NCBI RefSeq assembly: GCF_026210795.1
Contig: NC_089445.1
Location: 3,844,001 to 3,908,000, forward strand
Direction of reading: 5' to 3'
Source of the DNA: Rhizophagus irregularis
Taxonomy: Eukaryota > Glomeromycota > Glomeromycetes > Glomerales > Glomeraceae
Length of the DNA stretch: 64,000 nt
Shown: positions 2,660 through 60,973 of the stretch, one piece after another
How positions within the stretch are numbered: the first letter of the stretch is position 1
Layout: the number at the start of each line of letters is the position of its first letter
Notes under the pieces: generated by a model
Databases searched by the model: none
The model's input: the letters and a program-made list of their open reading frames with translations, nothing else
Told to the model about the DNA's origin: nothing
Program-made: the position numbers and the translations under genes

Positions 2660-3930
2660 CACATATTTCAAAGTATGGTTTGAGCATTTTGGTTAAAGTA
2701 AATCTTATTCTTTTAATTAAAAGTAGTTCAGTAAGTTTAAAACTGTTAAGATATTAATCTTCATAAAAGTACAGTTAATATTTTTGGAATTATTTACATT
2801 TTTTATATAATACAGTAGTATTAAGTTACAAATTTTTTTACCTTCAGAACGTATTTTGAGATCTTTATCCAAAGTAAATCAACTTCTTATATTAATTGTA
2901 AGTTGTTTAGCATGTCAAAATCTACTTGAATATTAATTTTCACGAAGGTACAGTTAATACTTGATGAGTTATTCACGATTTTCACAATGGTACTCATTCA
3001 CGAATTTTATTTTTTTCCGTTTTGTCACTTCAGAGCGTATTTTGAGCACTTTATCCAAAGTAAACTAACTTTTTATATTAATAGAATGTTGTTCATCATG
3101 TCAAAATCTACTTGAATATTAATTTTCACGAAGGTACAGTTAATACTTGATGAGTTATTCACGATTTTCACAACGGTACTCATTCACGAATTTTATTTTT
3201 TCTATTTTGTCACTTCAGAGCGTATTTTGAGCACTTTAGCCAAAGTAAATCGACTTCTTATATTAATTGAAAGTTGTTCAGCATGTCAAAATCTACTTGG
3301 ATATTAATTTTCACGAAGGTACAGTTAATACTTGATGAGTTATTCACGATTTTCACAACGGTACTCATTCACGAATTTTATTTTTTCTATTTTGTCACTT
3401 CAGAGCGTATTTTGAGCACTTTAGCCAAAGTAAATCGACTTCTCATATTAATTGAAAGTTGTTCAGCATGTCAAAATCTACTTGGATATTAATTTTTACG
3501 AAGGTACAGTTAATACTTGATGAGTTATTCACGATTTTCACAACGGTACTCATTCACGAATTTTATTTTTTCCATTTTGTCAATTCAGAGCGTATTTTGA
3601 GCACTTTAGCCAAAGCAAATCGACTTCATTTATTAATTGAATATTGTTCAGCATGTCAAAATCTACTTGAATATTAATTTTCACGAAGGTACAGTTAATA
3701 CTTGATGAGTTATTCACGATTTTCACAACGGTACTCATTCACGAATTTTATTTTTTTCCGTTTTGTCACTTCAGAGCGTATTTTGAGTACTTTAGCCAAA
3801 GCAAATCGACTTTATTTATTAATTGAAAATTGTTCAGCAGCTTAGAATCTACTTGAATATTTATTTTAATGAAGGTACAGTTAATATTTGTGGAATTATT
3901 AATTTTTATAATTGTGCATATTACATTGAA
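2660..3930. repeat. 185-bp tandem satellite, about six units
   Basis: The word CAGAGCGTATTTTGAG (first copy CAGAACG) recurs at 2845, 3031, 3216, 3401, 3586 and 3772, i.e. every 185-186 bp. The central units are almost identical; the outer units are degenerate. Each unit also contains GTACAGTTAATACTTGATGA and ACGGTACTCATTCACGAA. Two 72-codon ORFs offset by 185 bp arise from the repeat and are not regarded as genes. Confidence 0.9.
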
Positions 3931-4432: not shown

Positions 4433-5160
4433 AATTCGCAAGAATTTTTGTTAATACTGTTTAATTTTTAAGTTCAAAGTCTGATTGATAATACTAAATT
4501 CAAAACTCAATTATAAATCATTTTTATAAATTAGTATTAAGATTTTAATTTAAAAATTAAGCAGTATCAAGGAAAATTCTTGCGAATTTTTCTTAATACT
4601 GCTTAATTCTAATTTAACTAATTTAGTATTAAAGCTTTAATTTAAAAATTAAGCAGTATCAAGGAAAATTCTTGCGAATTTTTCTTAATACTGCTTAATT
4701 CTAATTTAACTAATTTAGTATTAAGGCTTTAATTTAAAAATTAAGCAGTATCAAGGAAAATTCTTGCGAATTTTTCTTAATACTGCTTAATTCTAATTTA
4801 ACTAATTTAGTATTAAAGCTTTAATTTAAAAATTAAGCAGTATCAAGGAAAATTCTTGCGAATTTTTCTTAATACTGCTTAATTCTAATTTAACTAATTT
4901 AGTATTAAAGCTTTAATTTAAAAATTAAGCAGTATCAAGGAAAATTCTTGCGAATTTTTCTTAATACTGCTTAATTCTAATTTAACTAATTTAGTATTAA
5001 AGCTTTAATTTAAAAATTAAGCAGTATCAAGGAAAATTCTTGCGAATTTTTCTTAATACTGCTTAATTCTAATTTAACTAATTTAGTAGTATTAAGGCTT
5101 TAGTTTAAAAATTAAGCAGTATCAAGGAAAATTCTTGCGAATTTTTCTTAATACTGCTTA
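4433..5160. repeat. 92-bp tandem satellite, each unit a strong hairpin
   Basis: GCAGTATCAAGG recurs at 4561, 4653, 4745, 4837, 4929, 5021 and 5116: exactly 92 bp apart except the last, which has an extra AGT. Each unit contains an inverted repeat of about 21-bp arms (AAGCAGTATCAAGGAAAATTC and its near-complement GAATTTTTCTTAATACTGCTT) around TTGC, so the array is a series of cruciform-capable hairpins. A partial unit begins the array near 4433. Confidence 0.9.
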
Positions 5161-6474
5161 TATTCGCCAATTTGTGGAATTAGCCAAAATTAAGATTTTC
5201 ATAAAGATTTGCACATTTTAACAAGAATTATGTTTCACAAGCTTAAATTATATGTGTTACATAATCAGATGATCTAAATCTATCAAAAAATAAAAAAAAA
5301 TTTTTTAACGTTTATTCAAAAATAACAATGGCAACTACTTTCTTTTTTAATCACTTTTCAATCACTTTTCAATCACTTTTCAATCAGATTTTTGTTAGGT
5401 GACTTAGAAAAGTTTATAGGCATATATAGCAGGTTTTTTTTAATCAATAATTAAGAAAACAAATATTAATAATTTTTATTAATAAGAAAAGTCTTTTTTC
5501 ATTTATTTTTAACCTTATTTCCTTCTTTTTTTTAGTAAAAATATATACAAAATAAAAATGTGAGTTATGATTTAGAGTTTTTGAGATGTTTTTTTTTGTT
5601 TTTTACTATACTAATTTTATTCTACTTGTTAATTACTTTTTAAAATTGATTTTATTAATTTATTCAATTTAAAACAGAAATAGCAAATAAAACCTTATTA
5701 AGTAAAGTAAAAAGAGCTCAATAATACCTGTAAAGATCATCTTTTGGTAAGAATTATAATTTTAAAAATTTTTGTATCAGAGTTTTATTCAATTAACAAA
5801 ATCGTTAATATATCAGCGTAAATACATGCTAAACACATATATTTATATTCATATGAAAGGCCAGAACCTAAACTACCTGAACGAAAAAAGATCATTCAAA
5901 TTGAATTACTAGATGTGAAGATATTAACGATCAAAGTCAAAAGTTAAAAACAAATACATTGAACGTAATTATTCAGCAACTTGTGATTCAATTCATGCGA
6001 TATTTGGTTTATAGATAGCTCTTGATTACCTCTTTCTAATGAATATAAATTCATTCATCTAGCACAGATACACGTTAAGTTATTCAATATTTTGTCATGA
6101 CAATTATATTTAAATTTTTTAATTTTAATGATATTATTAAAAAAAATCAAAAAATAATATAATCAAATCAATTTTATTTATGTCAGCTGGTGTGAATCTA
6201 TCATTTTCATGTAACTTGTATTTGCATTTGCTTAATAAAGTTAGTTTTTTGAATATAAAAACTTAATTCCATAAATCAGCCCATATTACGTTAGAGGAGT
6301 TACACATATCACGTAATATTCATTTTATTATAAACCTTACCCCACCCCCCCCCCTGTTAGATTTCATAACCAATCAAATTATAATATTTATAAATCATAT
6401 GATTTAAATAAGTGTAACGTAAAATTTTAACTACCCCCTATAATAATTACATAATATGTGTAGTACTCCCTAAT

Positions 6475-57036: not shown

Positions 57037-60000
57037 ATGAGCGAAGATTCACCCAATTTAGAGGAGTGAGTATATCATTTTAAAATTAGAGTTTTATATG
57101 ATTTTGTCATTAACTAACACTTCATTAATTATAAAATAATAGGCGGTAATTATATCATTTTTAAAATTGGAGTTTTATAATGATTTTATCACTAACTAAC
57201 ACTTTATTACTCTAATCAATTACCAATCGATCACAATTTAATTAAATTACCAGTTTGTAAGTATATCATTTTTAAAATTGGAGTTTTATAATGATTTTGT
57301 CATTAACTAACATTTCATTTTTCTAATTAATCACTGATCAATCACAATTCAATTAAATTACCAGAAAGTAAGTATATCATAATTGAAATCAAAGTTTCAT
57401 AATAATTTTATCATTAACTAATACTTATTAATTATGAAATAATAGGCGGTAATTATTTCACTTTTAAAATTGGAATTTATAATGATTTATTACTAACTAA
57501 TACTTCATTTTTAATCAATACCAATTAATCACAATTCAATTAAATTACCAGTTTGTAAGTATATCATTTTTAAAATTGGAGTTTTATAATGATTTTGTTA
57601 TTAACTAACACTTCATTTTTCTATTCAATTACTGCTAAATCATGATTTAAGGGAGTGAGTATATCATTTTTAAAATAGGAGTTTTGTAATAATTTTGTTA
57701 TTAACTAACTAACACTTCATTTTTCTAACCAATTATTGATCAATCATGATTTAAGGGAGTGAGTATATCATTTTTAAAATTGGAGTTTTATGATGATTTA
57801 TCACTAATTAATACTTTATTTCTCTAATTAATTACAATTCAATTAATTACTAGTTTGTAAGTGTATTATTTTAAAATTGAAATTTATTATGATTTTGTCA
57901 TTAACTAAAACTTTATTTTTCTAATCAATTACCAATTAATTACAATTCAATTAAATTACCAGACAGTAAGTATATTATAATTGAAATTAAAGTTTTATAA
58001 TAATTTTGTCATTAACTAACATTTCATTTCTCTAATCAATTACAATTTAATTAAATTACCAGAAAGTAAGTATATTATAATTGAAATCAAAGTTTCATAA
58101 TGATTTTGTCATTAACTAACACTTCATTTTTCTAATCAATTACTGATCAATCATAATTTAAGGAAGTAAGTATATCATTTTTAAAATTGGAGTTTTATAA
58201 TAATTTTGCCATTAACTAATACTTTATTTCTCTAATCAATTACTTATTAATTACAATTAAATTAAATTACCAGCCAGTAAGTATATTATAATTGAAATTA
58301 AAAGTTTTATAATGATTTTATCATTAATTAACACTTCATTTTTCTAATTATTTATTGATCAATCACAATTTAATTAAATTATTAGACCGTAAGTATATTA
58401 TAATTGAAATCAAAGTTTTATAATGATTTTATCATTAACTAGCACTTCATTTCTTTAATCAATTACCAATTAATTATAATTCAATTAAATTACCAGACAG
58501 TAAGTATATTATAATTGAAATCAAAGTTTTATAATAATTTTGTCATTAACTAACATTTCATTTCTCTAATTAATTACAATTTAATTAAATTACCAGCCAG
58601 TAAGTATATTATAATTGAAATTAAAAGTTTTATAATGATTTTATCATCAATTAACACTTCATTTTTCTAATTATTTATTGATCAATCACAATTTAATTAA
58701 ATTATTAGACCGTAAGTATATTATAATTGAAATCAAAGTTTTATAATGATTTTAATTAAAGTTTTATAATAATTTTGTCATTAACTAACATTTCATACTT
58801 TTATCAATCATACAATTCAATTAAATTACCAGTTTGTAAGTATATTATTTTTAAAATTGGAGTTTTATAATGATTTTGTTATTAATTAACACTTTATTTT
58901 TTTAATCAATTACTTATTAATCACAATTCAATTAAATTATTAGACAGTAAGTATATCATAATTGAAATTAGTGATTTTATCATTAACTAATACTTCATTT
59001 TTCTAATCTTTTACTAATCAATCATGATTTAAGAAAGTGAGTATATCATTTTTAAAATTGGAGTTTTATAATAATTTTGTTATTAACTAGTACTTTATTT
59101 TTCTAACATTTATTAATTACCAATTAGTTTTAATTCAGGTATTAATTGTTATATATGTGGTAATAAATGGTTAAATAGTCCAACTAATCATACCATGTGG
59201 TGTCAAAGTTGTCAAATAAAAGTGTTAAAAAAAATTCTTATAAATTCAGCCTGTGAAAATAAAAAAATTTATGATTTCATTCAAAAAATGCATTCACAAA
59301 TTAACTATGCAGAAGATATTGTATTTGAATGGATACCATACATTCAGTTTGATAATATTAAAGAAATAACAAAAATAGAAAAGAATAGTTCTATTACTTT
59401 TACTACAGAATATTTAGCAATATGGAAAGATGGTCCATTATATTATGAATCTGCTAACCAGAAATTTAAAAGACAATTAGATCAAAATGTTATCTTAAAA
59501 TATTTATATAATTCACAAAATATTATTGATGAAGTTTTAAATGAAGTATGAAATTTCTTTTTAATTTAAATATTTTTCTTAATATAATAATAATATGTTT
59601 TTATATTTTTTATGTTTAATAGGTTAAAGAATATACAATTGAACGAGGACGTAAAGGTTTATTTTCAGATAAAACAAAAAAATTTATATATGGAATATCT
59701 CAACATCCTAATACAAAAGATTATATTATGGTCCTTCATTGTAAAATATATTGTAAAAAATGTTATAAAAATATAAATATTTATGAAGGATGTAAATTAT
59801 GTTTAATAGATTCTTTAAAAGAAAATTTTATAAACTGGACTAGTGGAAATAAAATAATTGATAATATTATTCAAGAAATGCAATTAAAAACATCTGATAA
59901 ATTAATTGAATGGATACCATATAATCAGTTTATTAATATTAAAAAAATAGGTAAAGGTGGTTTTTCTACAGTATATTCAGCAATATGGAAAGATGGTCCA

Positions 60001-60973
60001 TTATATTATGATTCTATTAAACAGAAATTTATAAGAGTATCATATGAAAATGTTGCCTTAAAATGTTTAGATAATTCTCAAAATATTACTTATGAATTTT
60101 TAAAGGAGGTATGAAATTACTTTTAATTAAATACTTTTTTTTAATATAATAATAATATGTTTATTATATTTTAATAGATTAAAGGATATTCAATTATAAA
60201 ACAGAATAATATTATTAAAATATATGGAATATCTCAAAATCCAGATACAAAAAATTATATTATAGTTCTTCAACATGCAGAAGGTGGAAATTTTAGTAAT
60301 TGGGTAAATATGAATTATAAAGATTTTAATTGGAAGAATAAAATAAAAGTATTAGGTGATATTATTGAAGGCCTTAAAGAAATTCATGAAAAACAAATGG
60401 TTCATCGTGATTTTCATACAGGAAATATATTATTCAATAAGGCTTCTGCTTATATTTCAGATATGGGATTATGTGGAAAAGTTGAAAAAATTGATAAAAT
60501 AAGTGAAACAAAAATTTATGGAGTTATGCCTTATGTAGCTCCTGAAGTTTTAAGAAAAAAACCTTATACTCAAGCAGCAGATATATATAGTTTTGGTATG
60601 ATTATGTATTTTGTAGCAACTGGAAAACAACGCTTTTGCGTCGTGAGCATGTCGTATTTTAGTATTAAATATATGTGGAGGAATTAGACCTGAAATAAAT
60701 GAATTAGAATTACCAAAATGTTATATTAATTTAATGAAAAGATGTTGGGATTCAAATCCAGATAATAGACCAAATACTATTGAAATAAAAGAAGAAATTA
60801 AATTATTTTATAATTCATATAAAAATGATGATGATAAAATTAAAAAGCAATTTGAAGAAGCAGAAAAATTTAAGAAAGAAATTGCATTAACAATTACTCA
60901 TCCACAAGCTATTTATACATCTCAATTGCTTAATCCTTTTACAGAAGATTTTTCAATAACTGAATGGTTATAA
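57037..60973 (+). CDS. Protein kinase gene with microexon array and duplicated N-lobe; frameshifted near the end
   Basis: Exon 1 57037-57065 (MSEDSPNLE plus two bases), 19 microexons of 3 nt, then 59128-59545, 59623-60108 and 60178-60973; the last two introns (GTATGA..AATAG) are phase 0. The frame is open from exon 1 to about 60640. Residues about 34-60 hold a Cys pair module (CYICG, WCQSC). A degenerate kinase N-lobe follows (EWIPYIQF.., AIWKDGPLYY, YGISQHPNTKDYIMVL), lacking a Gly-rich loop. A second Cys module (CKKC, CKLC) leads into a complete kinase: GKGGFSTV (from G278), K315 (VALK), HRDFHTGN (D408), D-M-G (425) and APE (451). The C-terminal helix motif is RCWDSNPDNRP. The Gly loop, Lys, HRD and Asp are present, so catalysis is plausible. 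A net +1 shift at about 60640-60656 separates GKQRF from LVLNICGGIRPEI: a sequencing error or recent damage. Confidence 0.75.
57066..59127 (+). repeat. Tandem array of 20 intron units separated by 3-nt microexons
   Basis: Each unit starts GTAAGT, GTGAGT or GTAATT followed by ATAT, carries TTAACTAAC or a close variant, and ends in AG; lengths run from 77 to 121 nt. Between consecutive units lie exactly three bases: GCG 57143, TTT 57254, AAA 57365, GCG 57446, TTT 57552, GGA 57652, GGA 57756, TTT 57854, ACA 57963, AAA 58063, GAA 58163, CCA 58274, ACC 58386, ACA 58497, CCA 58597, ACC 58709, TTT 58833, ACA 58944, AAA 59034. Units fall into two body types (ATCATTTTTAAAATTGGAG or ATTATAATTGAAATCAAAG) and several ends (ATTACCAG, ATTATTAG, ATTTAAG, AATAATAG). 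Full inclusion would encode ERLKRLEDLQKNQPHQPLQN between exon 1 and the Cys module, in frame, when the last acceptor is AATTAG at 59127. Whether the microexons are really spliced in is not shown by DNA alone. Confidence 0.88.

Follow-up and report, generated by a model that had tools for sequence, protein, structure and literature searches.

Exons of three nucleotides strung together by the dozen have been described in the truffle Tuber melanosporum, whose NACHT-ANK genes carry dozens of 3-bp mini-exons (Iotti et al., 2012, as cited in PMC9815663 and PMC10197012); the parts of these two articles that deal with them place the mini-exons in the C-terminal recognition region of NLR proteins and report alternative splicing. 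Exons of a single nucleotide, lying between two GT-AG introns and required for phase agreement, are described in excerpts on Arabidopsis APC11 (PMC4674806) and on Fusarium CYP621A, which its authors call the second example and the first in a fungal gene (PMC12940212). The micro-exon genes of Schistosoma, according to a partial account in PMC10526429, encode secreted proteins and contain, in series, numerous very small exons (6-81 bp, usually 15 bp) that mostly keep the frame, between introns of 0.1-5 kb. The arrays that we describe here from Rhizophagus irregularis share with the truffle genes, as those sources present them, a fungal host, dozens of 3-bp exons and a setting in signalling or recognition genes, and the principle is the same. 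What appears new is the host families (Pkinase/PK_Tyr_Ser-Thr protein kinases and an AIG1-type GTPase instead of NACHT-ANK proteins), the N-terminal instead of C-terminal position, the genome-wide occurrence, the presence of a 1-nt exon in the kinases, and a stop-codon pattern that, as evidence from sequence, favours constitutive joining. Unlike the single exons of APC11 and CYP621A, the 1-nt exon considered here closes an array of microexons, recurs in exact form at 84 places, and is predicted from sequence. The Schistosoma genes differ in kind: here the hosts are kinase and GTPase genes, the predicted exons measure 3 nt and the introns about 80-120 nt.

Within the window (the whole stretch of DNA analysed, 64,000 nucleotides long), the gene that carries the array was modelled as follows:

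57037..57065, + strand: exon 1, encoding MSEDSPNLE plus GA and ending in phase 2
57066..59127, + strand: array of 20 homologous GT..AG introns and 19 microexons of 3 nt
57143..57145, + strand: first microexon, GCG, between the intron 57066-57142 and the donor at 57146
59034..59036, + strand: last microexon, AAA, followed by the final intron 59037-59127
59128..59545, + strand: exon 2, with the FNSGINCYICGNKW Cys module and a degenerate kinase N-lobe segment; end placed by eye at GTATGA
59623..60108, + strand: exon 3, with a second Cys module, an INWTSGNKIID motif and a kinase N-lobe with a GKGGFSTVYSA loop; ends placed by eye
60178..60973, + strand: exon 4, the kinase catalytic part; ends placed by eye

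The initial annotation had claimed 20 intron units with donor and acceptor, separated by exactly 3 nt each time, and both claims hold: the introns run head to tail, are 77-121 nt long and all start with GT and end with AG (20/20), and all 19 spacers measure 3 nt, with triplet counts identical to those first given (TTT 4, ACA 3, AAA 3, GCG 2, GGA 2, CCA 2, ACC 2 and GAA 1). Pairwise identity between the introns is 0.78-0.99 (median 0.87; aligned columns, gaps left out), and the 20 donors comprise 14 GTAAGT, four GTGAGT and two GTAATT. A branch-like box had been ascribed to every unit; its exact form, TAACTAAC, occurs in only 9 of the 20, although the looser TAA[CT]TAA occurs in 18. Between this box and the acceptor, the dinucleotide GA occurs 14 times and AG only twice in a total of 996 nt, and both instances of AG (units 2 and 17) arise because the script picked an earlier TAATTA, 5′ of TAACTAAC within the unit. 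Exon 1 ends and exon 2 starts (at 59128) in phase 2, the initial nucleotide of exon 2 completing a codon, and the concatenation with all microexons included reads MSEDSPNLEERLKRLEDLQKNQPHQPLQNFNSGINCYICGNKW with zero stops; through the whole run it gives ERLKRLEDLQKNQPHQPLQ and then the Cys module, likewise stop-free; the phase-2, in-frame reading originally proposed is thereby borne out. The peptide predicted to lie between exons 1 and 2 is RLKRLEDLQKNQPHQPLQ. Omitting all microexons would likewise preserve the frame. The stop-free frame of this array by itself was rejected as evidence, the array being too short.

The joined protein upstream of a frame break is a protein kinase (PF07714, PK_Tyr_Ser-Thr, E 4.3e-33, 115.2 bits against a cut-off of 23.1; PF00069, Pkinase, 105.5 bits against 31.7). 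The break falls in the kinase C-lobe at about 60630-60690, after which the conserved C-lobe resumes in another frame, so that this copy may be decaying or misassembled. Exons 2 and 3 each carry a Cys module and a kinase N-lobe segment (59128-60108), and the gene therefore looks internally duplicated; the exon 2 copy of the N-lobe segment is without the glycine loop. That the window copy is a pseudogene and its array a relic, as the frame break within the C-lobe suggests, is a prospect that we rate somewhat short of even, since the array is intact (GT and AG at all 20 introns, no stop) and the break could be an assembly error. The window array is a small member of its class, in a kinase copy that is possibly decaying. 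Elsewhere in the window are two tandem arrays, both clean: 2842-3890 (185 bp x 5.7) and 4527-5165 (92 bp x 6.9).

Tandem arrays of this kind recur across the genome (146,748,485 bases in 32 contigs). A two-junction pattern with 3-nt spacers matched 1506 times (740 + 766; backward control 0), compared with a single match for the same pattern with 4-nt spacers (backward controls 0 and 2). The figure of 1506 is a lower bound, and among the matches listed just one falls in the GTPase array considered below; among those listed, which lie on contigs 1 and 2, most belong by eye to another intron family than that of the window. A genome search with one window intron unit, which omits common words, recovered one further place with the window's own family, at C1:1723697-1731514. 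Introners are likewise homologous, near-identical introns, present in many copies dispersed over many genes; here, in contrast, the copies stand head to tail in arrays, and the window family was seen at only two places by a search that omits common words. We read 21 arrays, mostly in part: that of the window, the GTPase array and 19 arrays before kinase exons. The four read whole show dozens of consecutive 3-nt spacers, delimiting 19, 69, 28 and 28 putative microexon triplets.

The second locus of the window intron family is the start of a gene unrelated to the kinases, that of the AIG1-type GTPase. Its array (C1:1723675-1731511) comprises 70 triplets, namely the end of the first exon and 69 microexons, with unit lengths of 89-132 (10 of 80 pattern matches were excluded as out of register before reading). 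One of the 69, ACC at C1:1729555, is preceded by AA instead of an AG acceptor and is therefore perhaps unusable as an exon. On the 3′ side the array leads to a coiled-coil protein with an AIG1 domain (PF04548, E 1.7e-17, 63.9 bits; cut-off 27). The phase was taken from the first long downstream exons; read in this phase, the array gives MDERLWEELEESLKGLLPPTIPPPPPLPGRLPLGTKIPSPPPLPGRLPIKKIPINERNERPRRRHAIKG-GISNQGELQ... with 0 stops, against 3 and 5 in the other two phases, and the start codon is assembled over the first junction as AT|G. Because 25% of order-shuffles of these triplets are also stop-free, the open frame of the GTPase array by itself is only suggestive. The encoded peptide repeats PPPLPGRLP and contains a proline-rich stretch, PPTIPPPPPLPGRLP, which we take to resemble SH3/EVH1-type ligands.

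The remaining arrays precede protein kinases: the array 3′ ends that were read lead into kinase exons of the RFGKSGN..IID type, of which at least 150 are listed (150 of 2838 candidates scored). One such gene (g1, C1:1864301-1869300) was read end to end and has exon 1 encoding MGQCISK (phase 1), exon 2 (phase 1), 28 microexons, a 1-nt exon A and a kinase exon in phase 2, giving MGQCISKEFEGNDTGGFKERST-VSDWFDQKKNHLENHRYHLDRWFEINPFE-FGKSGNKIIDKF; its frame is open from MGQCISK into the kinase with the 1-nt exon and broken without it. A single nucleotide between AG and GT closes all 19 kinase arrays (A in 18, G in one), the need for it to keep frame being seen in g1. At all three 5′ ends traced the array is entered in phase 1, which in L071 requires the upstream of two possible acceptors, and 16 of the 16 kinase exons scored start in phase 2, those of g2 (insertion) and of L067 and L079 (no motif found) being left unscored. 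The predicted terminal 1-nt exon accordingly shifts phase 1 of the 5′ exons to phase 2 of the kinase exon. An exact pattern for this terminal module has 84 matches in the genome (backward control 0), of which 75 are followed, on their own strand and at no more than 200 nt, by a listed kinase exon, and 75 of the 150 listed exons have one; two more (L070 and L078) read as kinase ends. Ten of the 19 arrays came from array-pattern matches and nine from the kinase-exon list (five of these chosen for long open frames), and all nine picked from the kinase list instead of the array list carry both an array and a 1-nt exon; the kinase query itself came from an array gene, so this sampling is uninformative on other kinase families. 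For the 29 loci L034-L062, taken from the first kinase search, the comparison was by protein only.

The kinase arrays encode chiefly D, R, F, N, W, Y and H. Two of the three first exons read from array genes start with MGQ, a possible N-myristoylation start, and the third with MAQ. Two insertions were observed at these loci. On the minus strand at C1:2290001-2295600 (L073 + L068), the kinase exon 3′ of the array is interrupted by a probable mobile element, an insertion that has inverted ends (GGATAGGGATGGG..CCATCCCTAC), and at about 1990-2045 of L067 a small inverted-repeat insertion (CACTGGGGTGATGATTACCCCAGTG) lies inside one array intron.

Spacers were also measured without assuming a length of 3 nt, by taking strong donors (GTRAGT/GTRAGC) and the first AG within 22 nt upstream as the acceptor. 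The 281 strong donors of 18 loci gave 258 spacers of 3 nt, 16 of 1 nt, three of 6 nt, four of 19-20 nt and no other length, as against eight such donors on the reverse strands. The 16 spacers of 1 nt are exactly one per kinase array of this set; those of 19-20 nt are exon 1 of the window gene, one in L076 (3 nt if a nearer AG is used) and two in g2 outside its microexon run. Three later arrays added 66 spacers of 3 nt and three of 1 nt. L092 (C4:4735801-4738420) is the sole array seen with frame-shifting spacers: one junction is of 0 nt and two spacers measure 2 nt, apparently where a block of units has been duplicated; this exception may be a dead copy or a sequencing error. For comparison, the indel load in mid-intron predicts 16.4 spacers other than 3 nt among 170 (spacers here being taken from the 3-nt pattern). 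Sequence conservation is far lower in the triplets than at the splice sites: column identity of the leading spacer is 0.47-0.58 in five arrays, against 0.92-0.96 for the donor in four of them, the 0.69 of the fifth (L067) being taken as misalignment, and MAFFT column identities at unit ends are unreliable because acceptor types differ.

Since each codon straddles two neighbouring microexons, stop codons can be avoided at the joins only if selection sees those two neighbours joined. For the kinase arrays, most of which were read at the 3′ end only, the phase came from the 3′ side by way of the 1-nt exon, assuming its inclusion, and triplet pairs more than 160 nt apart, between which a weak junction may lie, were excluded; in g1 the 5′ exons give the same phase as the 3′ side, and in g2, whose kinase exon is unscored, they agree with the 3′-side phase. 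Across the 19 kinase arrays there are no stops at 238 adjacent joins, against a shuffled mean of 7.0, and none of 3000 shuffles was as low; with the first 16 arrays shuffled whole, 1 in 5000 was as low. The same neighbours in reversed order give 9 stops in 238, and the stop-codon analogues show no deficit as sets (A, 8 against 4.7 in shuffles; C, 5 against 5.3; G, 10 against 6.0; stops, 0 against 7.05). Joins over one microexon carry 6 stops in 210 (6.5 in shuffles) and joins over two carry 4 in 186 (5.9 in shuffles). Duplication of units makes the adjacent joins partly dependent on one another; with distinct neighbour pairs of the first 16 arrays counted once, there are 0 stops in 120 against 5.35 expected, zero being reached in 4 of 5000 re-pairings. 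Order is also non-random beyond stops (GGG 9 against 18.3, TAT 19 against 26.2, GTT 9 against 13.9, TTT 23 against 14.1), and unit duplication could therefore supply part of the stop signal. The three kinase arrays fetched last, as a replication, have 0 stops in 60 joins with 0.59 expected, too few of their triplets being stop-capable. The GTPase and window arrays together have 0 in 86 adjacent joins against 1.33, which is not significant (1 of the 86 is not real, the regex having omitted the GTPase triplet without an AG acceptor and included one spurious match beyond the array). Since stops are absent at adjacent joins of the kinase arrays and occur at about the shuffled rate at skipped ones, successive microexons appear to have been spliced and translated over evolutionary time. 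The original proposal that the trinucleotides are microexons fares well by this measure, in that they behave as though real and translated, and the pattern speaks for neighbouring microexons of the kinase arrays being joined constitutively; constitutive joining in the window array would be an extrapolation from these.

We consider it highly probable that the arrays are runs of one-codon spliceosomal exons, in which every unit pairs a normal short fungal intron with 3 nt, the codons are joined one by one into an N-terminal segment, and array size changes as intron-plus-codon units are exchanged or duplicated. In fungi, recognition of a short intron works across the intron itself (intron definition), so that each unit should be removable on its own. 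Units of about 80-120 nt would be removed singly, one after another, exon 1 gaining one codon per step, and the mature mRNA would carry the codon run as a short N-terminal segment, ending in the kinases with the 1-nt exon that takes phase 1 to phase 2. Arrays would grow and shrink via unequal exchange or duplication of intron-plus-codon units, and codons could change without a frameshift; repeated triplet blocks, such as CCA-ACC-ACA-CCA-ACC in the window array and those of the GTPase array, are expected if units multiply in this way. The sequences themselves present the spacing, the phase agreement where both ends were read, the 1-nt exon, the avoidance of stops at adjacent joins and the genome-wide recurrence in more than one gene family; splicing itself, its order, the exchange mechanism and a product that would serve as a variable tail on signalling proteins are what we infer. 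Passive tandem duplication of an intron plus one codon, the alternative that the initial annotation had allowed for, survives in one half: such duplication probably grows the arrays, but it seems not to be passive, as spacing, frame and stop avoidance are kept with few exceptions.

Extended to the whole genome, we regard as rather likely a one-codon-per-exon system of at least 77 kinase genes (perhaps at least 150) and at least one AIG1-type GTPase gene, in which N-terminal runs of up to about 70 3-nt exons would be joined unskipped, kinase runs would be closed by an obligatory 1-nt exon, and recombination would edit proteins codon by codon without frameshifts.

Other readings can be weighed against the one-codon exons. 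The arrays could act through splicing itself, by delay, transcript surveillance or control of expression, the codons being neutral save that none may be a stop; triplets far less conserved than the splice sites would fit, and we hold this to be unlikely, though not negligible, as well as compatible with one-codon exons, from which it differs only in the target of selection. It is improbable that the arrays are a combinatorial generator, in which any subset of microexons is skipped to yield many N-terminal variants per gene. Nearly all units being 3 nt, skipping would be frame-neutral; alternative splicing is reported for the 3-bp mini-exons of T. melanosporum in the relevant parts of PMC9815663 and PMC10197012; and joins over one microexon in the GTPase and window arrays carry 0 stops in 83, though only 1.3 were expected. 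In the kinase arrays, however, stops are about as frequent as in shuffles when one or two microexons are passed over, so that free skipping, which looks unselected, would often yield a truncated protein, and this idea, raised in the initial annotation, was not sustained. Also improbable is a passive minisatellite within one long intron (57066-59127) removed whole, its internal splice-like signals being functionless copies: all units being homologous, their equal spacing could be inherited, and a direct splice from exon 1 to exon 2 also preserves frame in the window gene, but the spacers stay at 3 nt despite many intron indels, stops are avoided at adjacent joins, a direct splice in the kinase family stays in frame only with the 1-nt exon included, and the GTPase start codon requires the first microexon.

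Searches of the R. irregularis genome for an intronless copy (retrocopy or paralogue) of the window-array peptide found none, returning only the peptide itself and one weak match, and found none for the GTPase-array peptide; here the C20 relative (L084) is degenerate, with no N terminus visible. For the first MGQ kinase, none of the 150 matches listed from the same genome starts before query residue 33, most of them starting at the kinase exon. In the open-licence literature on micro- and mini-exons we found no publication on arrays like these in Rhizophagus, which does not show that they are unpublished; the only intron mentioned in the passage of PMC11333574 on SP7-effector genes is a conserved one that precedes the first repeat.

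If the one-codon exons are confirmed, a single genome would probably hold 3-nt exons in numbers well above 1500, together with 1-nt exons numbering over 80. Such sizes are far smaller than what is usually considered recognisable as an exon, and whole runs of dozens are apparently joined faithfully. The arrays would offer a natural test bed for intron definition without exon sequence, for the ways in which gene-finding pipelines can miss coding sequence, and for the evolution of a protein tail by recombination, one codon at a time. The hosts are signalling families of what is apparently a major plant symbiont.
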